Source: Bacteroidota bacterium
GTDB lineage: Bacteria; Bacteroidota; Bacteroidia; Bacteroidales; F082
Assembly (NCBI GenBank): GCA_016845105.1
Contig: JAERTF010000164.1
Span: 25,796 to 89,795 of the forward strand
Direction: 5' to 3'
Length of the DNA stretch: 64,000 nt
Numbering within the stretch: position 1 is the stretch's first letter; the number at the start of each line of letters is the position of its first letter. The notes beneath the pieces were generated by a model. It worked only from the letters and a program-made list of their open reading frames with translations. It did not search any database and was not told the origin of the DNA. Below, in pieces: positions 6,305-24,675 of the stretch. The position numbers were made by a program, and so were the translations under genes.

Positions 6305-8023
6305 CTATCTTATTACAGATGCTTTATTTGCTACAATACCCTTACTGGTTTGGAATGTGTAAAAATAATAACCTGCTTGAAGTGTTGATGCATCCCATAC
6401 TATGGTATGCGTACCAACTGAGTATTTATCATTTGCAATTACAGAAACCAATGAACCTCTGATATCATAAATATTTACAATAATATGATCACTATTTTCA
6501 AGTGTAAATTCAATGTTTGTTTTTGTGCTAAAAGGGTTTGGATAGTTTTGTAATATGGTTACGTTATTTTCAATTTCTACAATTGAAGAAGGATTACGAT
6601 TGGATTCTCCCGGAGAATAATCGGGCATCATAAACCAATTATTTGTACCATCTGTATATCGTCCATAGGATGTGTCTGCTATTTGTGGTCCATATGTAAT
6701 ACTGTCAATAAACACTTGTTCAGGACTCCATAAGCCAACCTGTTCACCACCTCCACTCAATTTAAAGCCAAGGTTAAGTACGCTTGACTCCTGTCCTTTA
6801 TTTGCATAAAACAAAATAAAACCTCCAGATTCAACAGTTACTGAATCAGGATAGGTATCAGGAATCATGAACATAGCTTCAGGATCTATAAGATCATCTG
6901 ACATGTAATAACCACCTAGCATAACAGCTTCTTCACCTGCATTATAAATTTCAATCCAATCAGGGAAATCACCCTGTGGCCCAGGGAGTGCAGCATCATT
7001 ACTTGCCATAAATTCATTTATGTAAAGTATAACATCAGATGGTCCTATATTAGGGTTTGTGTTCGACTCACCAGGTGTAAAATCACTCATGAAATACCAG
7101 TTTTCGGTTCCATTATGGTAGCGACCATAAGATGTATCAGTAATCTGTTCTTCATATGTAAGGCTATCTAAAAATACTTGTTCTTGATCCCAAAGACCTA
7201 TCTGTTCACCACCACCACTTAATTTAAAGTTAAGGTTCATAACGCTCGACTCTTGTCCTTTATTTGCATAAAAAACAATAAAATCACCAGGCTGAACTGT
7301 AACTGAATCAGGATATGTATCTGGAATCATAAATCTGGCTTCAGTATCAACAAGATCATCTGACATAAAATAACCTCCAAGCATAACAGCCTCTTCTCCT
7401 GCATTATAAATTTCTATCCAGTCGGGATAATCACCTTGAGGACCTGGGAATGCAGCATCATTGCTTGCCATAAACTCATTAATAAAAAGTTCAGGAACTG
7501 TAGGTGATGGATTTGTATTTGCAGTACCCGGAGTATAATTGTTCATAAAACCCCAAAAGCTACCACCATCAGGAAATCGTCCCATTGATACATCAGTTTC
7601 CTGATTTCCATAACTCATTGTGTCGATAACCACACTCTCAGGAGTCCATAATCCTATAGATTCTCCACCTCCACTCAATTTAAAGTTAAGGTTTAATACG
7701 CTTGACTCTTGTCCTTTATTTGCATAAAACAATATAAAGCCTCCAGCAGGTACTGTTACAGAATCTGGATAAGTATCCGGAATTTGAAACATTGCGGCTG
7801 GATCATTCAAATCATCAGACATATAATAACCTCCTAGCATTACAGCTTCACTAGTGTTATTATATATTTCAATCCAATCAGGGTGATCTCCTTGAGGACC
7901 AGGGAAAGCTGTATCATTACTTGCCATAAACTCGTTAATGTAGAGTTGGGCATTTAAACTATTGGTTACCATAAGTGACATCAGAAATGCCATCATAATA
8001 ACTGAAAAGTATTTTTTCTTCAT
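6305..8023 (-). CDS. Exported protein with three tandem lamin-tail (LTD) domains and T9SS sorting domain
   Basis: Three near-identical copies of LYINEFMASNDxAFPGPQGDxPDWIEIYN...; C-terminal NYPNPFSTKTNIEF...; start taken at MKKKYFSV (8023) rather than the ORF-track start 8146. Confidence 0.85.
   Translation of the reverse strand: MKKKYFSVIMMAFLMSLMVTNSLNAQLYINEFMASNDTAFPGPQGDHPDWIEIYNNTSEAVMLGGYYMSDDLNDPAAMFQIPDTYPDSVTVPAGGFILFYANKGQESSVLNLNFKLSGGGESIGLWTPESVVIDTMSYGNQETDVSMGRFPDGGSFWGFMNNYTPGTANTNPSPTVPELFINEFMASNDAAFPGPQGDYPDWIEIYNAGEEAVMLGGYFMSDDLVDTEARFMIPDTYPDSVTVQPGDFIVFYANKGQESSVMNLNFKLSGGGEQIGLWDQEQVFLDSLTYEEQITDTSYGRYHNGTENWYFMSDFTPGESNTNPNIGPSDVILYINEFMASNDAALPGPQGDFPDWIEIYNAGEEAVMLGGYYMSDDLIDPEAMFMIPDTYPDSVTVESGGFILFYANKGQESSVLNLGFKLSGGGEQVGLWSPEQVFIDSITYGPQIADTSYGRYTDGTNNWFMMPDYSPGESNRNPSSIVEIENNVTILQNYPNPFSTKTNIEFTLENSDHIIVNIYDIRGSLVSVIANDKYSVGTHTIVWDASTLQAGYYFYTFQTSKGIVANKASVIR
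6660..7960 (-). repeat. Three direct repeats of ~460 bp encoding the LTD domains
   Basis: Motif 'acgctTgactc(c/t)tgtcctttatttgcataaaa' recurs at about 6780, 7242 and 7699. Confidence 0.8.
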
Positions 8024-8311
8024 ATTTAATAGATTTAGTTTATAGAAATACAATTTTGATTTAAAAGTACATTTATATTTTATAAAACAAATGTATTTAA
8101 AGATATTCTCAAATATATCACAATAGACTATATTCGAACTATACATTTTAAAATTGCTTCTCCCCTAAATACCAAAACCAAATTAGGCCACCTCTACAGC
8201 GTCACACCTATACCTCTGACTATGTATATATTAACACATTTTGCATCCATACATTTACCCTCAAATACTTTACACATACACAACATGCCATCTGTAACTT
8301 TTCAATAAGCT

Positions 8312-8342: not shown

Positions 8343-8993
8343 ATGTCCCTACTTTTCAAAAACGTAAAGCAACTGATATTTGATATTGATCAGTTTATCG
8401 AGACAGTGGAACAAGGTGTACTAGTTTTCAAGGAGGGTGTTGTTAATTATATTGAAGGAGAGAAAACAAGTTTTTCAGATAAAATTCAGCAAATAGATAA
8501 ACTGGAAGCGGATGCTGATAAATTGCAACGAAAAATTGATGATAAGTTTTACCGTTATTCCATATTACCTCAAAATGTTGGTGATATTGAAGAAATGTTA
8601 GATAAGCTGGATGAAATAATAGATATTTCAAAAGATAATCTATATCAGTTTGAGGCTGAATTACCGTTTATTCCCAAGGAGCTAAAAAGTGAATTTATCA
8701 GGTTAACCGAAATATCAACCGAAGCCGCTCTGGCTGTTTTCCCGGCATCCCGAAGTTTTTTCAGGGAACCCTTAAAGGTAAAAGATATGCTTTCGAAAGT
8801 TTACTTTTATGAAAGGGAAACAGATAAAATTGCAATAAATATTAAGCGTAAACTATTTCATGAAATGAATGATCTTAGATTAAGCCAGAAAATGCACTTA
8901 AGATATTTCACATTACATATCGAAACTGTTTCAGATAAAGCAGAAACTTTGGCTGATTTACTTTCTATATTAGCATTGAAAATGAGTATATGA
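8343..8993 (+). CDS. DUF47/PhoU-like phosphate transport regulator
   Basis: Helical protein of TIGR00153/DUF47 type; overlaps the start of the PiT gene by 4 nt (ATGA). Confidence 0.85.
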   Translation: MSLLFKNVKQLIFDIDQFIETVEQGVLVFKEGVVNYIEGEKTSFSDKIQQIDKLEADADKLQRKIDDKFYRYSILPQNVGDIEEMLDKLDEIIDISKDNLYQFEAELPFIPKELKSEFIRLTEISTEAALAVFPASRSFFREPLKVKDMLSKVYFYERETDKIAINIKRKLFHEMNDLRLSQKMHLRYFTLHIETVSDKAETLADLLSILALKMSI

Positions 8994-10840
8994 TAATCCT
9001 TTTTTTTCTATCCAGTGGTTTATTCCTAGGTTGGTCCTTGGGTGCCAATGATGCTTCCAATATTTTTGGAACAGCTGTAGGCTCACGTATGCTTCGTTTT
9101 AAAACTGCAGCTATTGTGGCCAGTATTTTTGTTATACTAGGAGCTGTAATACAAGGTGCAGGAGCAAATCACACATTGGGCAAATTAGGAAGTGTTAATA
9201 CTATTGCAGCAGCATTTACTGTGGCACTTTCTGCAGCACTTACAGTTTATTGGATGACAAGAATGAGTCTTCCTGTATCCACATCTCAAGCAATAGTGGG
9301 TGCAATAATTGGATGGAACTTTTACACAAACAACCCAACTGATTTAAGTGTTCTATCTAAAATTGTATCTACATGGATTAGCGGTCCGATATTGGGAGGA
9401 ATTTTTGCCGTTTTACTGTTTATGCTTGTCAGGCTAATCTTTAGAAAGTCGAGGATTCATTTACTTTTTAAAGACTCAATGGTAAGACTTGGTCTGCTGG
9501 TTGTTGGAGCATTTGGTGCCTATAGTCTTGGGGCAAATAACATAGCCAATGTAATGGGTGTTTTCACCGGTGCAATAAACTTACCACCAATTGATTTTGG
9601 TCTCTTTGTATTAGATAGCACTCAGCAACTATTTTTTGTTGGTGGTGTAGCCATAGCCATAGGTATTATTACATATTCTAGACATGTAATGGAAACCGTT
9701 GGAAATACGTTAATGCCGCTTACACCAGATGCCGCAATTGTTGTGGTTCTTGCTCAGGCACTGGTTCTATTCATATTTTCATCACAGGGATTATCAGACG
9801 CTATGCAATCAATTGGTTTGCCAGGAATTCCTCTAGTTCCTGTGTCCAGCTCGCAAATTGTTATTGGTTCTATTATCGGCATAGGTCTATATAAAGGAGG
9901 TAAAGAGATAAAATATAATATACTAGGAAGTATTAGTCTTGGTTGGATTGCAACACCAATGGTTGCAGGTGTACTAACGTTCTTTATGTTATTTTTTGTC
10001 AATAATGTTTTTAAACAAGATGTTGGAGGTGACAGGTCCCTAGTGGTAGTAGATGATTTAAAGATTGAAATGGGGAAAAGTGATAATCTGCAAAATAATA
10101 ATGCAGATATTATAATTGAAACGAGGCCCATTACGATTGACACATTAAATAGTTCAATAATTGTAGGTAGTACAGGTAATCCTATATACGAAAACAACTC
10201 AATTAAAACAGAATTGGTAATACTTGTTTTAATCCTAATTATATCACTTATAGTATTATCATACTTTCTATACTCGTATCTTAAGAAAGATAAAAACAAA
10301 CTTCTGCATATTAAAGAGTTAGAGGATAAATATCATCATAAAGTTAAAATACTTGAAGAAAGTCTAGCCAACAGAATAATTGAACAAGATGATCTTGATA
10401 AAGAACTAAAATTTCGTCAAAGTGAAATGATTACAATGGCTATGAGTATTATTCGCAAGAATGAATTTCTTGATAATCTAAAAAATGAAGTCATTAAGAT
10501 CAAGACAGGAATTATAGATCAGGAAATCAGATTAAAGTTGAATAAACTATCATTAATGATAACTCAGGATCTTTCAATCGACAGAGATCGAGAAAAATTT
10601 CAGATGCATATCAATGAGCAAAACAGTAATTTTATTCATCAGCTTGAAGAATCTTTTCCCTCAATGACAGATAATGAAAAACGATTGGCTTCAATGCTTA
10701 GGCTAAATCTATCCTCCAAGGAAATTGCATCAATATTAAATATATCTCCTAAAAGCGTTGAGATGAATCGATACAGACTACGTAAAAAATTAAAAGTAGA
10801 TCCGAAAGTAAATTTAACAGATTTTATCAGAGATTTCTAG
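8990..10840 (+). CDS. Inorganic phosphate transporter (PiT family) fused to a C-terminal coiled coil and LuxR-type HTH domain
   Basis: Both PiT signatures (GANDASNIFGTAVGSR; GANNIANVMGVF), an extra TM (TELVILVLILIISLIVLSYFLYSYLKK), then FPSMTDNEKRLASMLRLNLSSKEIASILNISPKSVEMNRYRLRKKL; one continuous ORF. Confidence 0.9.
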   Translation: MIILFFLSSGLFLGWSLGANDASNIFGTAVGSRMLRFKTAAIVASIFVILGAVIQGAGANHTLGKLGSVNTIAAAFTVALSAALTVYWMTRMSLPVSTSQAIVGAIIGWNFYTNNPTDLSVLSKIVSTWISGPILGGIFAVLLFMLVRLIFRKSRIHLLFKDSMVRLGLLVVGAFGAYSLGANNIANVMGVFTGAINLPPIDFGLFVLDSTQQLFFVGGVAIAIGIITYSRHVMETVGNTLMPLTPDAAIVVVLAQALVLFIFSSQGLSDAMQSIGLPGIPLVPVSSSQIVIGSIIGIGLYKGGKEIKYNILGSISLGWIATPMVAGVLTFFMLFFVNNVFKQDVGGDRSLVVVDDLKIEMGKSDNLQNNNADIIIETRPITIDTLNSSIIVGSTGNPIYENNSIKTELVILVLILIISLIVLSYFLYSYLKKDKNKLLHIKELEDKYHHKVKILEESLANRIIEQDDLDKELKFRQSEMITMAMSIIRKNEFLDNLKNEVIKIKTGIIDQEIRLKLNKLSLMITQDLSIDRDREKFQMHINEQNSNFIHQLEESFPSMTDNEKRLASMLRLNLSSKEIASILNISPKSVEMNRYRLRKKLKVDPKVNLTDFIRDF

Positions 10841-11091
10841 TTGTTATTTGCCCTGAGAATTCATTTTCCTAAAACTATACATTAATAATTAACCACCATG
10901 TTTAAAGCCTCTAAAAATCACTCTTACCATATTAAATTACTGTTTAACTGTGTATTAATGGTGTTTGAGTGTTTGTGTTTACTAAATGTAGGGTATATGT
11001 AGAGGCATTATTAATGTCTCAAATTTGTTATTGATGTTATTTAGCAATTGGAAATTATAAATGATTCGTTTAATAATCAAAAGCAATTAAT

Positions 11092-12714
11092 ATGAAGAAA
11101 AGTTATTACTGTAAGCTTACACTATTGGGATTAATTATGTTATTTCTGTTTAGTGGAAATGCTTATTCGCAAGTAGAAAATACTGTAACAGGAAAAGTTT
11201 TTCCGGCCGGTATGCAAACACCAATGAGAGATGTTAGTGTAGGAATTCAAGGTGACCCTTCATCCATGGTTCTTACCGATGGAAATGGGTTTTTCAGCTT
11301 AACCGTAAAGGAATTTCCTGTTGACATTATTTTCATTAAAGACACATATGAAAAGCAAGTTGTAAATGTTAAAAAAGCCAGTGACATTACTGTTTATATG
11401 TCAGTAGCGGGAAAAGCAGTAAATGACTATGGACAAGAAGTTGGAATTAGAGTTAAGCTAAATCCTGAATCCAGAGATGGTATTCTGATGTTCTCATCAA
11501 CTGATAACAGGTTTAGATATTGGTTTGATAATCGTGTGTATTTTGATGGTGCTGTATATTTAGGAGATAATACATACCAAGGTGTTGAACACAAAATTGG
11601 AAATGGCGTAAATATTCGCCGTATGAGATTTGCCATGAAAGCTATTATATATGGTAACTGGGGTGGTGAAATTGATTTTGATTTTGGAAATAACGAAGTA
11701 GATATTAAAGATGCGTATATCAGATATATCGGTAAAAACTGGCAACTTAAAGCTGGTAACTTCAGAGAGCCAATGTCAATGGAAACAATGACAACATCAA
11801 GGTACATTACGTTTTTGGAAAGACCCATGGCTACTGAACAAGCTCCTTCACGTCATCTTGGTATAGCGTACAAAACATTTACTAATCATTTGTTTTTTGA
11901 AGTTGGAGTTTTTTCTAGTAAAATTGCCAATGATTTGATCAGAGATCAGAACAAAAGTAACGGAACTAATGCTGGTTGGTCTGTAACAGGTCGTTTAGCA
12001 TATGCACCTATTAAAAAAGATAGAATGGTGCTTCACTTTGGAGTATCAGGATCTTATAGAACACCCAAAATTCAAGAACTTGGTGACCCAATAAACAGCT
12101 TTAGATATGGTGAAAATGCTGAAACAGAAATCAATCGTAAGAAATATATTGATACCGACTGGGTACCATATTGTAAAACAAAAACTATTTATGGTTTAGA
12201 ATTTGCTTACGCAGTAAAAAACTTCCGTGTCCAAAGTGAATATCTTAGAACTGATATCACAAGAGATGCCGATAAAGTACCAACTGGTGAAGATAAGTTT
12301 TCAATGGGAGGATTCTATGTTATGGGTGCATGGTTAATTAATAATGCTGACTATTATTATAATATGGCAGATGCTGAGTTTTCACAAATTGATTTTCAAG
12401 ATAACAAGAAAGGCGCTTTTGAGTTTGCATTAAGATACTCCTTTATGGATGCAAATACTTTTAAGGATGGTGTAGATATACCATATATGCCAGGTGGTTC
12501 AGGTGAAAGTTACACAGTAGGAGTTAGTTATTACTTCAACTACAATGTGAAGTTTATGCTAAACTACGCATACCTAAATCACGATCGTTGGGCTGACGGA
12601 AAAGGTAAGTACAAAACCTATGATATAGATGATAATGGAAATGATATAACTCCTGCGGGAAAAGGAGGAATTGATTTTAGCACTATCCAGGCGCGACTTT
12701 TAATTGCATTTTAA
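11092..12714 (+). CDS. OprO/OprP-like porin with N-terminal carboxypeptidase-regulatory-like domain
   Basis: VNIRRMRFAMKAIIYGNWGGEIDFDF...AYIRYIGKNWQLKAGNFREPMSMETMTTSRYITFLERPM; N-terminal VTGKVFPAGMQTPMRDVSVGIQGDPSSMVLTDGNGFFSLTV. Confidence 0.8.
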   Translation: MKKSYYCKLTLLGLIMLFLFSGNAYSQVENTVTGKVFPAGMQTPMRDVSVGIQGDPSSMVLTDGNGFFSLTVKEFPVDIIFIKDTYEKQVVNVKKASDITVYMSVAGKAVNDYGQEVGIRVKLNPESRDGILMFSSTDNRFRYWFDNRVYFDGAVYLGDNTYQGVEHKIGNGVNIRRMRFAMKAIIYGNWGGEIDFDFGNNEVDIKDAYIRYIGKNWQLKAGNFREPMSMETMTTSRYITFLERPMATEQAPSRHLGIAYKTFTNHLFFEVGVFSSKIANDLIRDQNKSNGTNAGWSVTGRLAYAPIKKDRMVLHFGVSGSYRTPKIQELGDPINSFRYGENAETEINRKKYIDTDWVPYCKTKTIYGLEFAYAVKNFRVQSEYLRTDITRDADKVPTGEDKFSMGGFYVMGAWLINNADYYYNMADAEFSQIDFQDNKKGAFEFALRYSFMDANTFKDGVDIPYMPGGSGESYTVGVSYYFNYNVKFMLNYAYLNHDRWADGKGKYKTYDIDDNGNDITPAGKGGIDFSTIQARLLIAF

Positions 12715-12745
12715 TTTAGATGAGTAAACCATAAAAAATAGAAAA

Positions 12746-13831
12746 ATGAAAAAATATATTTTAATAAGCATAATTGCTGCTCTGTTTTTCTCAGGTTGTG
12801 TAAAGGATGAACAACCTGCACCGCTTCCACCACCTGCAGAAGAATATGAGAGTATTGTTATAAATGAGCTAATCACAAAAGATCTAAGTGATCCGTATTT
12901 TGTTGACGGATTAGGTGAAGGTGCCGATTGGATCGAATTATATAACAAAGGAACAAAAGCTGTAAATGTTGCAGGAATGTGGGTTACAGATAACCCTGGA
13001 GTAGAAGATGATTATAATCGTATTCCTGATTCGGATGCTAATTTCACAACCATCCCACCTAAGGGTTTTTTGGTAATGATTTGTGGTGCAAAAGATTCTG
13101 AAGGCAATAAGATTGAAACAGGTATTGCAGATGGAAAAGTATTTATTGAAATGGGGTTAAGTTCATCTGGTGATCATTATGCTGCAATATACACCCCTGA
13201 AAAAGTGGAAATTGATAAGACTGATGATTTCAATGGTCTTGAAGATGGAAAATCATTTGGGCGCACTGTAGATGCAGGAGATACTTGGTCAACTTTAACA
13301 AATAAAACACCTGGAGAACCAAATGACGGTACTGTTCCTGTAGCCGGTTCACTTGTAATTAATGAATTTATGTGTAGTAATGATACCACATACATTCCTG
13401 ATGGTGGTCCTGATGATTATCCAGATTGGATCGAAATCTACAACACAGGAGATACTCCTCTTGATATTGGTGGCTGGTATGTTACTGATGATATGGCCGA
13501 TCCTATTCAATACCAGATACCATCAAATATTCCAGATCAAACTGTAATACCAGCACATGGTTACCTAATACTAAAATGCAACGGAGTAGGTGAAGGATTA
13601 AACACAAACTTTAAACTAGGTAGTGGTGGTGATGATATAGGTCTTTCCAAAGATGGTGTAACATTTGACGATTCAGTTTCATATGGATCAGCCACAGGTG
13701 GCGGCACTGAAGTTCCAAATCCAGAGACTGATATGTCAACAGGAAGAGATATTGATGGTAGTTTTGTTTGGGTGGTATTTGATCCAAATACAGAGTTTCC
13801 ACCAACTCCAGGAACATCAAACGGAAATTAG
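12746..13831 (+). CDS. Lamin-tail-domain lipoprotein (two LTD domains)
   Basis: Lipobox FFSGC; IVINELITKDLSDPYFVDGLGEGADWIELYN and LVINEFMCSNDTTYIPDGGPDDYPDWIEIYN. Confidence 0.85.
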   Translation: MKKYILISIIAALFFSGCVKDEQPAPLPPPAEEYESIVINELITKDLSDPYFVDGLGEGADWIELYNKGTKAVNVAGMWVTDNPGVEDDYNRIPDSDANFTTIPPKGFLVMICGAKDSEGNKIETGIADGKVFIEMGLSSSGDHYAAIYTPEKVEIDKTDDFNGLEDGKSFGRTVDAGDTWSTLTNKTPGEPNDGTVPVAGSLVINEFMCSNDTTYIPDGGPDDYPDWIEIYNTGDTPLDIGGWYVTDDMADPIQYQIPSNIPDQTVIPAHGYLILKCNGVGEGLNTNFKLGSGGDDIGLSKDGVTFDDSVSYGSATGGGTEVPNPETDMSTGRDIDGSFVWVVFDPNTEFPPTPGTSNGN

Positions 13832-13860
13832 AAATAAGTTATTCAAAATAGAAGTTAACA

Positions 13861-14622
13861 ATGAAAAGGTTCTCATTCATCACATTTGTTTTATTACTTA
13901 CATTTTCATGTAGTAAGGATACAACCACAGTGCCGGTGAATGAGAACCTAATCGGAGCTCTTGAATTAATCAATACTAATAAGGTTGACGTTCCAGAGCC
14001 ATCCGGTCTTACATTTGGGCCTGATAAAAAAACATTACTTACTGTTAGTGATCATACAAATCAGATTTATGAGCTAACGTTGCAGGGTGAAGTAATTCGA
14101 ATATTGGATTATGTTGGTAAAGATTTGGAAGGCATTTCATATAACCCATATGAGCACCTAATCGTAGTTGCAGAAGAAGCAGACCGGGATATTACACTTG
14201 TTGATTACGAAACAGGTAACAAAATTGAAACATATAATATTGAAATTCCATTTGGCTCTCCTAATAGTGGACTGGAAGGTGTTTCATACAATAACAATAG
14301 CCGATTATACTATATTTTGAACGAAACTAACCCTGATCTAATGGTGATCTGGAGTCCTGAATATGGAATAATCAGTGAAATTAAGTTAAATTTTGCTTCT
14401 GACTATTCGGGAATCTACATTGATGATAAACGATCTGCTATTTGGATGGTTAGTGATCAGTCAAAAGGTTTATACAAATGTAATTACAATGCTGAAGTTC
14501 AAATCACATATTATCTGGATGAATTAAAATATGAAGGTATTGTTGTGGTTGATGATATTATCTATTTGATTAATGATGCAACCGGAAGATTAAATATTTA
14601 CAAAATAAAGAAAGAAATATAG
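13861..14622 (+). CDS. SdiA-regulated/phytase-like beta-propeller lipoprotein
   Basis: Lipobox TFSC; PEPSGLTFGPDKKTLLTVSDHTNQIYEL...DLEGISYNPYEHLIVVAEE pattern. Confidence 0.75.
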   Translation: MKRFSFITFVLLLTFSCSKDTTTVPVNENLIGALELINTNKVDVPEPSGLTFGPDKKTLLTVSDHTNQIYELTLQGEVIRILDYVGKDLEGISYNPYEHLIVVAEEADRDITLVDYETGNKIETYNIEIPFGSPNSGLEGVSYNNNSRLYYILNETNPDLMVIWSPEYGIISEIKLNFASDYSGIYIDDKRSAIWMVSDQSKGLYKCNYNAEVQITYYLDELKYEGIVVVDDIIYLINDATGRLNIYKIKKEI

Positions 14623-14624
14623 CC

Positions 14625-15254
14625 ATGGTAACTACAATAATTCCAAGATATGAATTCAGGATTTTTGGAAATAATCTTGACCCTGTTATTCAGAATATAA
14701 CAAAGCTCTCTAGAAAAGAGATGACACGGAAAATGGATTCTGTTTATTTACTTACACCATGGAAAAGAAGGAATAATATTAAGATTAGAGAAGGAGTAAT
14801 GGATATTAAAGTTCTTGAGCAGGAGTTTGAGAAACTACAACAATGGAGCCCTTTTCTGGTGGGTGAATTCCCAATGAAATCTGAAGTAATTAAAACCACA
14901 GTATTTCCTGCACTAGGTGTTGAAAGCCCGGTATTTGAAAGAAAAGAATATACTTTAAAAGAATTCATCGATGAAGTGGTTTCCATTGATCCTGACTTGT
15001 CTGTTGCATATGTTTGGAAAACCAGACATGCCTACACCATCGCTGATTGTATTACAGAAATTGCAGAAATAAAAGTAAATGGAACTAGTGTAAAAACAAT
15101 TTGTATTGAGTCGGAGGATCCAAATAATGTTATTGAAGCAAAAAAAATACTAGGCATTGCCGAATCAACTGAAAATGTAAACTATCCACTGGCGCTCAAG
15201 CGTTTTATGGGTTTGACAAAATTACCAGATCATTGGAATACTATAAATTTTTAA
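14625..15254 (+). CDS. CYTH-like domain protein (paralogue A)
   Basis: RYEFRIFG...KIREGVMDIKVL...ITEIAEIKVNGTSVKTICIESEDPNNV; starts 2 nt after the upstream stop; similar to 15273-15914. Confidence 0.55.
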   Translation: MVTTIIPRYEFRIFGNNLDPVIQNITKLSRKEMTRKMDSVYLLTPWKRRNNIKIREGVMDIKVLEQEFEKLQQWSPFLVGEFPMKSEVIKTTVFPALGVESPVFERKEYTLKEFIDEVVSIDPDLSVAYVWKTRHAYTIADCITEIAEIKVNGTSVKTICIESEDPNNVIEAKKILGIAESTENVNYPLALKRFMGLTKLPDHWNTINF

Positions 15255-15272
15255 AAAGAAAGAAACAACTAG

Positions 15273-15914
15273 ATGACTAAAGATAAAATGAAAATTGGAG
15301 AAATTTCCAAGCCCAGATTCGAATTTAGAACCTTTGGGAGGGATTTCACAGATGTTGCATATTTAATGACAAGACTATCTGTTCCGGTACCAGAAAAAGT
15401 ATGGGAAAGAACCTCAGAAGAAACATATATCATTTCTAAAACAAATAATGTTAATAATACTAAAATCCGTGATGGTAAAATGGATATTAAAACATTCGTT
15501 CAGGAAGTAGATGGGCTTGAACAATGGAATCCTCTTATGAAAGGTGAATTTCCAATTAAGGCTGAGGTATTGGAGAAAGAAGTATTTCCTGCATTTATGG
15601 TTGACATGCCATCCCTTAATAAAGAAACTTATACACTTGAAGAGTTTATGGATATGGTTAAATCAAATCCTAATTTACAAGCCATTACAATTGAAAAAGA
15701 AAGGTTTGGATATATGATAAACAATACCATTTGTGAATATGCCAATGTATGGATAAATGGAGCAATGGTAGTTACTGTAAATTCCGAATCCACCGAATTA
15801 GATGATATAAAAAAGACTATAACTGACCTTGGTTTAATTGGTGTTGAGAATATCAACTACCTTCAAGCTGCCAAGAGAGTTACGGGTATGATTGATAAAA
15901 AACTAGCTAATTAA
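15273..15914 (+). CDS. CYTH-like domain protein (paralogue B)
   Basis: RFEFRTFG...KIRDGKMDIKTF..EVDGLEQWNPLMKGEFPIKAEV aligns with paralogue A (FEKLQQWSPFLVGEFPMKSEV). Confidence 0.55.
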   Translation: MTKDKMKIGEISKPRFEFRTFGRDFTDVAYLMTRLSVPVPEKVWERTSEETYIISKTNNVNNTKIRDGKMDIKTFVQEVDGLEQWNPLMKGEFPIKAEVLEKEVFPAFMVDMPSLNKETYTLEEFMDMVKSNPNLQAITIEKERFGYMINNTICEYANVWINGAMVVTVNSESTELDDIKKTITDLGLIGVENINYLQAAKRVTGMIDKKLAN

Positions 15915-16016
15915 TAATGTTGAAATGACTAACTGCTGATATGATTAAATATAAGATTAAAAATCCATTCAGCCATTTCAGTATTTTAACATTGTAGCAT
16001 TTAATCATTAAAAGAT

Positions 16017-16487
16017 ATGGCACAAGAAATTGAAAAGAAGTTTTTGGTATCCGGCAACTTTAAAACCCAGATAACCAGAGAAACAAGAATAACACAAGGA
16101 TATCTATCATCAATACCTGAAAGAACAGTTAGGGCACGTATAAAAGGTGATAAGGGCTTTTTAACCATAAAGGGTATTGGAAACGCATCAGGTGCAAGCC
16201 GTTATGAATGGGAAAGAGAAATTCCTGTTACTGAAGCAAAAGAACTATTGGAAATCTGTGAACCGGGCGTTATCGACAAAACAAGATTTATTGTACCTGA
16301 AGCCTCAGGTTTGAAGTTTGAAGTTGATGAATTTTATGGTGATAACGAGGGTTTAACAGTGGCAGAAATTGAGCTTCCTACTGAAGACCACCCTTTTAAT
16401 AAACCCAATTGGTTGGGTGAGGAGGTAACAGGAGATAGTAGGTTCTACAATTCGATGCTAATGAAAAATCCATTTAAAAACTGGTAG
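16017..16487 (+). CDS. CYTH domain protein (class IV adenylate cyclase/inorganic triphosphatase-type)
   Basis: N-terminal EIEKKFLV (ExExK), RTVRARIKGDKGFLTIKG, KFEVDEF, VAEIELP. Confidence 0.92.
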   Translation: MAQEIEKKFLVSGNFKTQITRETRITQGYLSSIPERTVRARIKGDKGFLTIKGIGNASGASRYEWEREIPVTEAKELLEICEPGVIDKTRFIVPEASGLKFEVDEFYGDNEGLTVAEIELPTEDHPFNKPNWLGEEVTGDSRFYNSMLMKNPFKNW

Positions 16488-16494
16488 CCGAATA

Positions 16495-17997
16495 ATGAAA
16501 GTGAAGAACTATATTGCCGGGTTTGTTGTGATTTCCTATTTAGTATTATTGGGATACTTATATTTAGGAATAGGTCAAGGAACACAATATCCAGCAAAAC
16601 CAATTACCATAGTAATTCATTCGAAACCCGGATCAGCCATTGATTACATGGCTCGAAAGGTATCAGAAATAGCTCGAAATTATAGTGATGTTCCGTTTGT
16701 GGTGGAAAACCGTTCAGGCACTCAAGGTTTAGTAGCCATGCAACATGTGCTTGATAAAAAACCAGATGGCTATACTCTGCTAGGTGTAACAAAGTCTTTC
16801 TTATCAACAGTAATGGTTAATAAGAGCAAAGTAAAGCTCGATGACTTTCTTTTTATTGCAAATATGGTTGATGACCCTGAAGCAATAATATCAAATCAGG
16901 ACAGGGGCTTCAGTACAGTTCAAGATGTTATTCATAATTCCAAATTAGATAAAAAACAAGTATGGATTGGCCCGGGAACAGGTGGACGTGATCATTTAAT
17001 GGCATTGAAATCTTGGGAAGTATTGGGTATTAATGCAAACTGGATTGACTACAAAAGTGGTCCTCAGTCAATTTTGGCTTTATTAAGAGATGAGGCTGCA
17101 ATTTATGTTGGTAACCCTTCGGATATTAAAGGCAAAAGCGGACTTGATGTTGTATCAATAGCTAGTGAAAGTAGATTATCATCACTACCTGATGTTCCAA
17201 CTTTCAAAGAGCAGGGATACGATCTTTATGAATCCATGTGGAGGGGATTTGCATTCAAAAAAGGTGTTCCAGATGAGGCAACTGAATATGTTACTAAAAT
17301 ACTTCAAGAGGTGGTTAATGATCAAGAGTGGAAAAACTATTGTAATGAGACATATGTTTTTTCAAATTTTGAAAAACATGTAGAATTCACTCAACGAATT
17401 GAGCAGGAAGTAGAGGAAACCAACAATTACCTTAATAAGGCTGGATTATTAGCTGCATATCAGGCTCAAAGTAAAATTCCATTAATATATATACTACTAA
17501 TAATTGTTGGTGTTACCTTAACATTACTTTTGGCATTTAATAAATTCAGATTTAGAAGAATTAGCTATGATCAATTTATTGCCGGTGGGCTCATCATTGT
17601 ATCTCTATTCTTTTATTACCAAACCACATTATTTTTAACACCAGAAAATGCTGATGTTACAAATCCTGCCCTAATTCCAAGAATCTGGATAATAGTGCTT
17701 TTAATACTCAGCGTTATTTTAATTGTTAAATCAAGAAATAAGATAATTGAAACAAGCCATTCAAAACCCGGAACAGTACTTATCATTATTGTTCTGCTTA
17801 TACTATATCTATTATCAATGCAATGGGTTGGATATTTTTTCACAACACCTATTTTCATTTTGATAACAATGTATTTGTTAATGTATCGGAAACCTGCTTT
17901 TATGACAATTAATGCTTTTGGTTTTGTGATATTCAGTTATTTCATTTTTAATAAATTACTACATATTGACTTGCCATTGGGCTGGTTATTAATATAA
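16495..17997 (+). CDS. Tripartite tricarboxylate transporter: TctC substrate-binding domain fused to TctB-like membrane domain
   Basis: N-terminal YPAKPITIVIHSKPGSAIDYMARKVSEIA... (Bug/TctC); C-terminal multi-TM TctB-like region, single ORF. Confidence 0.85.
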   Translation: MKVKNYIAGFVVISYLVLLGYLYLGIGQGTQYPAKPITIVIHSKPGSAIDYMARKVSEIARNYSDVPFVVENRSGTQGLVAMQHVLDKKPDGYTLLGVTKSFLSTVMVNKSKVKLDDFLFIANMVDDPEAIISNQDRGFSTVQDVIHNSKLDKKQVWIGPGTGGRDHLMALKSWEVLGINANWIDYKSGPQSILALLRDEAAIYVGNPSDIKGKSGLDVVSIASESRLSSLPDVPTFKEQGYDLYESMWRGFAFKKGVPDEATEYVTKILQEVVNDQEWKNYCNETYVFSNFEKHVEFTQRIEQEVEETNNYLNKAGLLAAYQAQSKIPLIYILLIIVGVTLTLLLAFNKFRFRRISYDQFIAGGLIIVSLFFYYQTTLFLTPENADVTNPALIPRIWIIVLLILSVILIVKSRNKIIETSHSKPGTVLIIIVLLILYLLSMQWVGYFFTTPIFILITMYLLMYRKPAFMTINAFGFVIFSYFIFNKLLHIDLPLGWLLI

Positions 17998-18015
17998 AGA
18001 CACCTAGAATTAATT

Positions 18016-19500
18016 ATGGGAATTTTTGAAAATCTTTGGTTAGGGTTACAGGAATTTGGGCATTTTCTACCCATTTTGATGATGTTCATTGGAGTTATCG
18101 TTGGTATTATGGTAGGTGTTCTTCCCGGACTATCACCTTCCATTGGTGTGGCACTTATGCTACCTGTAACATTTGGCCTAGATCCAATTAGCGCCCTTGT
18201 TTTACTTGTGTCTGTTTATTTATCATCCAATTACGGAGGTTCAATTACAGCCATTGCAATTAATACACCGGGTACACCTGGTGCTGTGGCAACAACATTT
18301 GATGGCTATGAGCTGACCAAACAAGGTAAACCATTGCACGCACTTGTAACATCATTAACAGCCTCAACTATAGGCGGATTGGTTGGTACTATTATTCTTA
18401 TTCTGTTCTCTGTACCACTTGCATCACTTGCGCTATCCTTCGAATCTTACGAGTATTTCGCTCTTGGAGTATTTGGTTTAACAATAATTTCATCCTTGGC
18501 AGGGAAAAGTCCTTTAAAAGGATTTATTTCTTCAGGCATTGGATTATTGCTTATCACCGTGGGGTTTGATACACAATTACCCTTTTCACGTTTTTCGATG
18601 GATATACCTGATCTTGCTGATGGAATAGAATTTATTCCTGCATTAATTGGACTATTTGCTTTAGGAGAGATCTTTTTTAGTATTGAAAAAGGTGATAATC
18701 AGAAAGTAGAGAAAACTACAGCTGTTGATCTATCAAATACCTTGCCCGTTAAGAAACTTCTTAAATTAAAATCATTGGTGTTAAAGTCATCAATTATAGG
18801 AACACTTGTTGGTTGTATTCCTGGAGCTGGTGGTACAATTGCAACATTTATTGCCTATGATAATGCAAAGAATGCAAGTAAACACCCCGAAGAATTTGGT
18901 AAGGGATCATTGGAAGGTGTTGCTGCTCCAGAAGCTGCTAATAATGGTTCCGTTGGTGGTGCATTAGTACCTTTGCTTACATTAGGAATACCGGGAAGTG
19001 CTTCCACTGCTGTTTTGATTGGAGCTCTAATGATTCACAAACTAAACCCTGGACCTGAGCTTTTTAGCAAAGAACCTGGATTAGTCTATGGTATATTTAT
19101 CAGCCTATTTTTTGCAAATATCTTTATGTTTTTTGTTGGATTGATGGGAAATAAACTATGGATTAAAATTATTGCCGCACCAAAATCACTATTATATCCA
19201 ATAATCCTTGCTCTATCATTTATAGGTAGTTATTTTATACAAAACTCTGTTTTTGATGTGGGTATTTGTATTGCATTTGGAGTACTTGGTTGGTTACTGA
19301 AACGTGGTGACTTTCCAACAGCACCAGTTATCCTGGGATTAATCCTTGGGAAAATGATTGAAGAAAACCTACGACTATCACTTATAAAAGGAGAATGGCT
19401 TGACTTCTTTACCCGCCCCGGAAGTTTAATTATTATTCTACTTGCTCTTGTTTCATTCTTTTTACCACATATCAAAAGAAAATTAAAGAAAATCAATTAG
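18016..19500 (+). CDS. Tripartite tricarboxylate transporter large permease (TctA family)
   Basis: VGVLPGLSPSIGVALMLPVTFGLDPISALVLLVSVYLSSNYGGSITAIAINTPGTPGAVATTFDGYELTKQGKP; second GxxPGxGG motif (GCIPGAGGTIATFIAYDNAK). Confidence 0.95.
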   Translation: MGIFENLWLGLQEFGHFLPILMMFIGVIVGIMVGVLPGLSPSIGVALMLPVTFGLDPISALVLLVSVYLSSNYGGSITAIAINTPGTPGAVATTFDGYELTKQGKPLHALVTSLTASTIGGLVGTIILILFSVPLASLALSFESYEYFALGVFGLTIISSLAGKSPLKGFISSGIGLLLITVGFDTQLPFSRFSMDIPDLADGIEFIPALIGLFALGEIFFSIEKGDNQKVEKTTAVDLSNTLPVKKLLKLKSLVLKSSIIGTLVGCIPGAGGTIATFIAYDNAKNASKHPEEFGKGSLEGVAAPEAANNGSVGGALVPLLTLGIPGSASTAVLIGALMIHKLNPGPELFSKEPGLVYGIFISLFFANIFMFFVGLMGNKLWIKIIAAPKSLLYPIILALSFIGSYFIQNSVFDVGICIAFGVLGWLLKRGDFPTAPVILGLILGKMIEENLRLSLIKGEWLDFFTRPGSLIIILLALVSFFLPHIKRKLKKIN

Positions 19501-19501
19501 T

Positions 19502-21217
19502 ATGTTATTATTATCAAGTATAGGGAACACTACTACTGTTTCCTGGTTTTTTGTATTGATGGGACTTCTAGGTGGCCTGGTTCTATTCCTTTATGGAATG
19601 GAAAAAATGAGTGAGGGGTTGAAAAAGTCAGCCGGTAAAAGAATGAGAAATATTCTATCGGCGCTAACTAATAACCGATTAGTTGGATTAGCTGTTGGTG
19701 CATTTGTAACCATGGTTATACAAAGCAGCAGTGCAACAACTGTAATGCTGGTAAGTTTTGCTCAGGCACAATTACTAACGTTTGGACAAACTTTGGCAGT
19801 GATACTTGGCGCAAATATTGGAACAACTGTAACGGCTCAGTTAATAGCATTTAAGCTAACAGATTATGCATTTTTAATGATAATAATCGGTTTTGCACTG
19901 ACCATTTTTTCAAAAAAAGATGGGTACAAATATCTTGGAGAATCATTACTCGGTTTTGGTATCCTATTTCTAGGAATGAAAGTAATGTCTGATTCAATGC
20001 ATCCTCTAAGGGATTATGAGCCTTTTATTAATATAATGAAAGATCTTGAGAATCCAGTTTATGGACTTATAATTGGTGCAATATTTACTGCGCTCATCCA
20101 AAGTAGTAGTGCATTTACGGGCATAGTTATTGTTTTAGCACAACAAGGTTTGCTAAGTTTAGGGGCAGGAGTACCGTTATTGCTTGGTGCAAATATTGGA
20201 ACTTGTATTACAGCCGGATTAGCCAGTTTAGGAGCAACCAGAGAGGCAAAACGTGTTGCTCTGGCACATGTTATTTTCAACACTGCAGGTGCGTTGATCT
20301 TTCTTTTTTGGATACCATATTTTGTAGAACTTGTTAGGTGGATATCTCCAGTTTCGGATGCTACTGGTATGCAAAAATTAGCAGCAGAAACCCCAAGGCA
20401 AATAGCTAATGCACACACATTATTTAATGTAAGTGTTGCGCTGTTGTTTTTACCATTCACTTCGCTGCTCTCAAAAACTGTATTGAAGATTCTTCCTGTT
20501 AAAGAAAACGAAAAAGCTTTGGAAGTAGTAACATGGCACCTTGATGACAAAGCTCTGTCTACACCTGCATTAGCCATCGATTTAAGTCATTCAGAAGTTG
20601 GCAGGATGGCTAAGATCTTACGAAGAATGCTAAGAGCAATAATTTACCCCATCCTACATGATGATGAAGGAGTTGATAGTACACATAAACATCTCACAGC
20701 AATTGAAGGCATTGAGATGAGGGAGGGTAAAATTGACTTTCTGGATGAGAAAATCACAAATTATCTACTAAAAATTGGAAAGGAAGAATTATCAGAAGAT
20801 CAAAGTGCAGAAGTATTTAACCTCATCTCCATTGTAAGATATATGGAAGCCATTGGAGATATTATCAATAGAAATATGTTTCCATTGATAGCAAAGAAAA
20901 ACGCTCTTAAGGATAACTTTTCCAAGGAGGGTCAGGAAGAAATTGCGTTATATCATGCAAAGATTTATAAGCAATTGGAACGACTCGAAACTATTTTCTC
21001 TGAAAATAAATTAAAGAAAGCTAAAAAAATTATCCAAAAGGATTTAAAGTATGCTGATCTGGAAGCTGAATTTAAGATACATCATCTTGAGAGACTGCAA
21101 AACAGAAGGAAAGAATCAATTATTACCCATGAACTTCATATGGACATAATGGATAATCTTAAACAGATAAGTGTATATATCACAGAAATAGCTCGTTCTA
21201 CAATTGGTGTTAGGTAA
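19502..21217 (+). CDS. Na/Pi cotransporter family protein (NptA-type) with PhoU-like C-terminal domain
   Basis: GGLVLFLYGMEKMSEGLKKSAGKRMRNILSALTNNRLVGLAVGAFVTMVIQSSSATTVM...LIQSSSAFTGI; helical PhoU-like tail. Confidence 0.92.
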   Translation: MLLLSSIGNTTTVSWFFVLMGLLGGLVLFLYGMEKMSEGLKKSAGKRMRNILSALTNNRLVGLAVGAFVTMVIQSSSATTVMLVSFAQAQLLTFGQTLAVILGANIGTTVTAQLIAFKLTDYAFLMIIIGFALTIFSKKDGYKYLGESLLGFGILFLGMKVMSDSMHPLRDYEPFINIMKDLENPVYGLIIGAIFTALIQSSSAFTGIVIVLAQQGLLSLGAGVPLLLGANIGTCITAGLASLGATREAKRVALAHVIFNTAGALIFLFWIPYFVELVRWISPVSDATGMQKLAAETPRQIANAHTLFNVSVALLFLPFTSLLSKTVLKILPVKENEKALEVVTWHLDDKALSTPALAIDLSHSEVGRMAKILRRMLRAIIYPILHDDEGVDSTHKHLTAIEGIEMREGKIDFLDEKITNYLLKIGKEELSEDQSAEVFNLISIVRYMEAIGDIINRNMFPLIAKKNALKDNFSKEGQEEIALYHAKIYKQLERLETIFSENKLKKAKKIIQKDLKYADLEAEFKIHHLERLQNRRKESIITHELHMDIMDNLKQISVYITEIARSTIGVR

Positions 21218-24204: not shown

Positions 24205-24675
24205 ATGGCAATTGAGATCGAGAAGAAATTTTTAGTAGTAGGTAATTATAAGGATTTTGCATTGAGCGAAACACGAATTATACAGGGATATATTTCATTA
24301 AATCCCGAACGAACCGTAAGAGTCCGAATAAGAGGAAAAAAGGGATATCTAACTATAAAAGGAGCTGGAAATAAATCGGGGGCAAGCCGGTTTGAATGGG
24401 AGAAAGAAATACCATTAAATGAAGCTAAAGAGCTTATTGAAATTTGCGAAAAAGGAATTATTGATAAAACACGCACAATTGTTCCTGAAAAGTCAGGCCT
24501 AATTTTTGAAGTTGATGAATTTCATGGAGACAATCTTGGATTAACCGTTGCAGAAATTGAACTTCCATCAGAAGATCATTTTTTTGAAAAACCCATATGG
24601 CTTGGTGATGAAGTTACAAATGATTCTAAATATTACAACTCCATGCTTATTAATAATCCATTTAAAAAGTGGTGA
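24205..24675 (+). CDS. CYTH domain protein, close paralogue of 16017-16487
   Basis: Same length (156 aa) and extended identity (EIEKKFLV..GN, NPERTVRVRIRG, IFEVDEFHGDNLGLTVAEIELPSEDH). Confidence 0.92.
   Translation: MAIEIEKKFLVVGNYKDFALSETRIIQGYISLNPERTVRVRIRGKKGYLTIKGAGNKSGASRFEWEKEIPLNEAKELIEICEKGIIDKTRTIVPEKSGLIFEVDEFHGDNLGLTVAEIELPSEDHFFEKPIWLGDEVTNDSKYYNSMLINNPFKKW

Follow-up and report, generated by a model that had tools for sequence, protein, structure and literature searches.

What substrate would call for an operon in which phosphate transporters, a porin, a CYTH enzyme candidate, two "CYTH-like" proteins and a TTT-type transporter stand side by side? Such a run of eleven genes occupies positions 8343-21217 of a 64,000-nucleotide (nt) stretch, hereafter the window, of contig JAERTF010000164.1 in the Bacteroidota assembly GCA_016845105.1, and an earlier note had taken it for a candidate integrated acquisition island for phosphate compounds. 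Through a computational analysis of its gene set, protein folds, clades, gene swaps and a gene fusion, we found that it belongs to a well-supported cassette whose carriers span more than ten phyla. With about even confidence, we propose that this system imports condensed inorganic phosphate, the substrate that we infer, and hydrolyses it in the cytosol, coupled to the transport of orthophosphate (Pi). The island idea held for its conserved neighbourhood, its dedicated transporter clades and the reality of its tunnel proteins; it failed in placing TTT and NptA at the core, as most genomes fill the transporter slot with a DASS protein that is absent from the window.

A cassette recurring across phyla

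Searching 297 Bacteroidota genomes with one of the "CYTH-like" proteins, we recovered the family, here named CYTHl, in 11 of them, the window's own included. In nine of the other ten, CYTHl is directly followed by a CYTH gene, whose product is 52-77% identical to that of the window, then by a DASS gene (Na_sulph_symp), usually by DUF47 and PiT, and by an OprO/P porin, and these runs often continue with LTD and SdiA-regulated proteins. The remaining genome has a Ppx/GppA gene after CYTHl in place of CYTH. A scan of genome contigs confirmed 507 CYTHl relatives; the locus counts reported hereafter cover the 79 loci kept from the best 80 of these, mostly contigs of metagenome-assembled genomes (MAGs). 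They include Ignavibacteriota, Bacteroidota, KSB1, Calditrichota, Acidobacteriota, Cloacimonadota, Riflebacteria, Aminicenantes, Marinimicrobia, SAR324, Desulfobacterota/Myxococcota and Alpha-, Beta- and Gammaproteobacteria, and hold CYTH (74 loci), DASS (57), OprO/P porin (55), DUF47 (48), PiT (42), SdiA-regulated (31), PhnD-like (21), TctA (10) and Ppx (5) genes. Since the same set recurs across phyla, the gene order of the window is far from chance. No description of this set was found in a literature search, most subscription journals being outside its reach.

A second sample of 61 relatives contained a cassette-clade TctA in 7 genomes and CYTHl in 17. Six of the seven TctA genomes hold both, and in the seventh the contig ends inside the CYTH gene, so that the neighbourhood conservation on which the earlier note had beforehand staked its proposal was indeed observed. 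The TctA-CYTHl link moreover holds beyond adjacency, because in three genomes (G319, G326 and G327) the TTT genes and the CYTHl cassette co-occur on separate contigs. The other Bacteroidota TctAs, detected in 5 of the 297 genomes, are 34-37% identical and stand in genomes without CYTHl.

Exchangeable transporters and tunnel-fold proteins

Across the 79 loci, DASS and TctA are mutually exclusive: 57 hold the former, 10 the latter, none both and 12, mostly short contigs, neither (p 4e-7, kinship ignored). On the CYTHl tree this state changes at least five times, one change being double-counted through the two CYTHl copies of the window. Two relatives from the window's genus (L021 and L024) have both DASS and TTT; overall, the exclusivity is almost complete, with several switches of the slot. 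A DASS ortholog sought across the window assembly was absent (best match 24-27%), as was any DASS remnant in the window.

Both transporters form groups of their own. The cassette TctAs, from Bacteroidota, KSB1, Desulfobacterota/Myxococcota, SAR324 and Alphaproteobacteria, cluster as one group (support 97/99) against 22 other TctAs, many of them from the same genomes, and identity to the window TctA (18016-19500, + strand; PF01970 2.7e-154), the only one in its genome, is 50-60% within this group across phyla versus 33-44% outside. Likewise, the cassette DASS proteins are set apart as a single group (100/100, stem 3.7) from 11 other DASS of the same genomes. In VcINDY, two SNT motifs bind substrate and Na+. 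In the cassette DASS (n=63), the first reads SAT, its S being replaced in 3, and the second reads SK(T/N) with the Lys present in 63/63, versus N (10/11) or H at this position in the 11 non-cassette proteins.

A comparable gain of positive charge marks the binding protein of the TTT system, which in the window is fused with the small membrane subunit in a single open reading frame (ORF) (TctC-TctB, 16495-17997, + strand; TctC 5.3e-25, TctB 3.6e-16), so that with TctA all three TTT components are present. Lysines distinguish cassette TctCs from others at K100 (15/16 vs 0/20), K255 (16/16 vs 1/20), K172 (15/16 vs 2/20) and K55 (14/16 vs 1/16), and the usual signature PFxAGGxxD (PMC5812351) is replaced by xxKPG(G/S)xxD. 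Characterised TctC pockets are devoid of positively charged residues (PMC8556258, PMC5812351); by motif counting, K44 would lie on the ligand loop and K100 near P86 of TphC. Beside the TTT genes of one relative (G326; L025:4649-5839) stands a regulator made of TPR, membrane and LuxR helix-turn-helix (HTH) parts, which precedes TctCB-TctA and whose tail resembles that of the PiT-HTH protein described below. Beside DASS, a conserved protein of about 487 amino acids from no known family occurs at L079:11730-13193 and in 15 other cassette loci. It has no Pfam match, its AF2 model (pLDDT 84) gave no significant fold match, and it is absent from the window genome. Among clusters of unassigned cassette ORFs, this protein and Ppx were the real ones, most others being antisense shadow ORFs.

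The CYTH protein of the window (16017-16487, + strand; PF01928 3.2e-12) is nearest to NE1496/NeuTTM (2fbl, 5e-17), a specific inorganic tripolyphosphatase of unknown role (PMC3440374). As it retains the ExExK motif together with Y29 and K52, which correspond to a known Tyr/Lys catalytic dyad (PMC3440374), it is a candidate tripolyphosphatase, predicted from its sequence. Its two upstream neighbours, CYTHl1 (14625-15254, + strand) and CYTHl2 (15273-15914, + strand), are 39% identical to each other, most Bacteroidota cassettes holding a CYTHl2-type copy. The earlier guess that these two share the CYTH fold stood, and their membership in CYTH by sequence did not. Neither matches Pfam or NCBIfam, and hhalign returned a probability of 0.1% between CYTHl and CYTH, that is, no sequence-level similarity. 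An AF2 model (pLDDT 92.7) of a relative about 40% identical to both window copies nevertheless had nothing but triphosphate-tunnel enzymes among its 29 best PDB matches (Foldseek, E 6e-6, TM ~0.5), starting with mouse thiamine triphosphatase, AtTTM3 and bacterial CYTH structures; on this model, the window copies are assigned the tunnel fold. CYTHl carries an RxExR motif and invariant K50, R52, D57, K59, K129, R131, E142 and E159 (L026 numbering). With the same fold but this motif, no Pfam match and the hhalign result, it is best read as a separate family.

CYTHl adjoins CYTH in 74/79 loci. In all five CYTH-lacking loci, and in none of the 74 with CYTH, a Ppx/GppA gene stands beside CYTHl or is fused with it (p 4e-8, kinship ignored), a state that arose at least twice on the CYTHl tree. 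The nearest solved chains of the cassette Ppx are exopolyphosphatases, and in Gammaproteobacteria bacterium 28-57-27 (L056:9986-11521) CYTHl and Ppx-GppA form one ORF, after which comes another CYTH-like protein. An apparently exported CYTH-like protein is also encoded between porin and DUF47 in Shewanella waksmanii (L093, 14111-14935).

Phosphate genes and layout of the window operon

The eleven ORFs of the window are intact, all on the + strand and in the order previously described, and Pfam backs the families that had been named. DUF47 (PhoU_div, a Pit accessory protein; 8343-8993, PF01865 4.7e-21) overlaps by 4 nt the PiT-HTH gene (8990-10840), a PHO4-domain transporter (9.6e-60, residues 18-329) followed by a coiled coil and a C-terminal LuxR-type HTH (GerE 3.7e-8, residues 558-611). 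After a gap of 251 nt, because of which two transcripts are possible, comes the OprO/P-like outer-membrane porin (11092-12714; Porin_O_P, PF07396 2.9e-45) with its N-terminal carboxypeptidase-regulatory-like domain; in Bacteroidota, the family name OprO/P is no proof of selectivity for phosphate or polyphosphate. It is followed by a probably surface-exposed LTD lipoprotein (12746-13831, PF00932 4.3e-24), of a type that recurs in the cassette, and by an SdiA-regulated, phytase-like beta-propeller lipoprotein (13861-14622; PF06977 2.5e-21, PF13449 7e-7), whose closest solved chain is YjiK (3qqz). Beyond the tunnel and TTT genes, the run ends with an NptA-like Na/Pi cotransporter whose Na_Pi_cotrans repeats are joined to a PhoU domain (19502-21217; PF02690 1.7e-68, PF01895 3.1e-10). 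From the porin onward, the spacing is operon-like, with gaps of 31, 29, 2, 18, 102, 7, 18 and 1 nt, the last six of which, between 13861 and 21217, had been correctly described.

A second CYTH gene (24205-24675, + strand), overlooked in the earlier note, is 74% identical to the first and possibly part of the system. Its neighbour encodes an FG-GAP/type IX-secreted protein, and in the syntenic region of L024 its place, before PBP1, is held by the DASS gene. A type IX-secreted protein with three LTD domains (6305-8146), which is encoded divergently from the operon and keeps its synteny in L024, may go together with the cassette LTD proteins. An Rfam scan of positions 5000-27000 gave no match. 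The Bacteroidota promoter pattern TTTG-N18-22-TAnnTTTG was not found near the operon, its matches being fewer than expected by chance, and the lone TATCTTTG upstream of DUF47, at about 8312, is not significant. The window genome comprises 4.5 Mb in 210 contigs and is 94.9% complete.

In the wider cassette, NptA alternates with PiT or comes in addition to it, and since it occupies the PiT place in L064, the PiT/NptA slot is one for Pi. The HTH on PiT, suggested earlier to make PiT-HTH a sensor, is a lineage form, that of Bacteroidales and Chitinophagales: the HTH occurs on 20/53 cassette PiTs (counted with an HTH-only query), and many other cassettes carry instead a divergently encoded PhnD-like binding protein, a histidine kinase and an NtrC-type regulator. 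The PhnD-like protein is nearest to ArrX (2e-15), which binds arsenate (1 µM) and phosphate (150 µM) (PMC5908839), and to PtxB (5e-15). No PF12974 protein occurs in the window genome, where PiT bears the coiled coil and LuxR HTH, and PiT-HTH and PhnD never share a locus (0/13 vs 16/29), a contrast confounded by taxonomy. The oxyanion sensor, the porin and the PiT/NptA and Ppx swaps each indicate phosphate, and thereby support the phosphate theme. A sulfate system, considered for the match of PiT to the CysP model and for DASS, was rejected (NCBIfam CysP score 81 vs a cut-off of 400), as was arsenate detoxification, no arsenic enzyme being conserved in the cassette. Downstream of or directly after PiT, we also observed a calcineurin-like phosphoesterase in a Desulfobacteraceae cassette (L073:16027-17163) and a dCache chemoreceptor in S. 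waksmanii (L093, 16794-18725).

Candidate substrates and known systems

Condensed inorganic phosphate is the simplest common substrate, because the cassette combines a Pi slot, a phosphoanhydride-hydrolase slot and two transporter families that both gained positive charge. Besides the substrate, we infer the direction of transport, the role of CYTHl and the regulation of what would be an envelope-spanning uptake-and-use system. Tripolyphosphate, possibly also pyrophosphate or short polyphosphate, would be collected by the surface LTD and propeller lipoproteins and the OprO/P-type porin, and would cross the inner membrane intact through the dedicated, lysine-bearing TctC-TctB-TctA or, in most relatives, through the dedicated DASS with its SKT lysine. 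Cytosolic hydrolysis would be performed by the NeuTTM-like CYTH, or by Ppx in some relatives, with CYTHl as a putative binding/presenting or regulatory partner of the hydrolase. DUF47 with PiT, and NptA, would handle the Pi side, and PiT-HTH would couple transcription to Pi transport, a control that the PhnD-like sensor, histidine kinase and NtrC-type regulator would exert in other lineages. More tentatively, and somewhat short of even confidence, the cassette would represent bacterial secondary transport of intact tripolyphosphate or short polyphosphate, used via tunnel-fold hydrolases, for which TTT and DASS were independently specialised.

Several points weigh against this proposal of condensed-phosphate import. 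The mapping of ligand pockets derives from sequence alignment, basic residues would suit any strongly charged anion, and our locus sample is a best-match selection made mostly of MAG contigs. CYTHl may be a non-enzyme, since an Arg replaces the first Glu of ExExK, and it could serve internal polyphosphate, since Ppx/CYTHl pairs exist without a nearby transporter (L051). Such pairs also speak for a rival reading, a phosphate-homeostasis module, in which DASS and TTT would carry orthophosphate or exchange Pi for an organic anion, and polyphosphate or triphosphates of the cell itself would be sensed or remobilised by CYTH, CYTHl and Ppx. Yeast Pho90 is a DASS Na+/Pi transporter (PMC13394699), and a link to Pi is shared by PiT, NptA, DUF47, PhoU domains and the ArrX-like sensor. 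However, PiT/NptA already take the operon's Pi slot, independently of which the DASS/TTT slot is swapped, Pi transport is not known for TTT systems, and at E 0.01 the cassette DASS did not match Pho90 in the PDB; we hold this module to be unlikely, if worth serious attention.

It appears improbable to us that the imported compound is an organic phosphate, a phosphonate or an ordinary carboxylate such as citrate (mobilising mineral phosphate or taken up as a metal chelate), the phosphate genes being present as the compound is a phosphorus source or chelator. Every TTT ligand characterised so far is a carboxylate or a sulfonate (PMC5812351), dicarboxylates and sulfate are substrates of DASS proteins, and the propeller is phytase-like and the sensor PhnD/PtxB-like; yet every cassette DASS has lost the SNT motifs and gained a Lys, cassette TctCs have new lysines, and the conserved enzymes are phosphoanhydride hydrolases, the cassette having no conserved phosphonatase, C-P lyase, phosphomonoesterase or carboxylate catabolism. 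A chance placement of the TTT and CYTH genes next to a phosphate locus is very improbable and was already disfavoured: MAG contigs are open to misassembly, and TctA and CYTHl lie on separate contigs in three genomes, but recurrence across phyla, the single TctA clade and genome-level co-occurrence even without linkage speak against it.

Specific inorganic tripolyphosphatases (NeuTTM) were recognised around 2011 and have stayed without a physiological role (PMC3440374); polyphosphate metabolism in microbes is usually viewed as purely internal cycling (PMC13318637). If import of condensed phosphate is true, the cassette would give the inorganic tripolyphosphatase a testable job and widen the range of the TTT and DASS families to inorganic polyanions. 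That an enzyme of the tripolyphosphatase type neighbours a dedicated transporter across many phyla, cultured Shewanella and Crenobacter included, makes this role directly testable, and a new tunnel-fold family (>500 genomic matches) would be added to the map of phosphorus cycling.

Compared with known systems, the window shares its three transport components with TctCBA, SlcHFG and TphC/TpiBA, and the fold of the cassette TctC matches solved TTT binding proteins, but its TctC-TctB is fused and bears extra lysines, and its TctA falls in a clade of its own that is associated with tunnel proteins and PiT. The DASS/SLC13 family (VcINDY, NaS1, NaCT, yeast Pho90), which fills the slot in most relatives and not in the window genome, is represented in the cassette by an isolated, long-stem clade with SAT/SKT for SNT. 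NeuTTM-type CYTH tripolyphosphatases are the nearest solved relatives of the window CYTH, which retains their catalytic residues yet is encoded within a transport operon, with a second tunnel family next to it. The PhnD-like protein, kinase and NtrC-type regulator, encoded divergently from their putative targets, recall AioXSR/ArrXSR, except that the cassette sensor neighbours transport and tunnel-enzyme genes rather than an arsenic enzyme and is absent from the window genome. In yeast, the three superfamilies of the cassette also serve phosphate, with the DASS proteins Pho87/90/91, the PiT protein Pho89 and the tunnel polymerase VTC. Unlike this yeast set, the cassette is devoid of SPX domains, and combines bacterial envelope parts with tunnel proteins of the hydrolase rather than the polymerase type.

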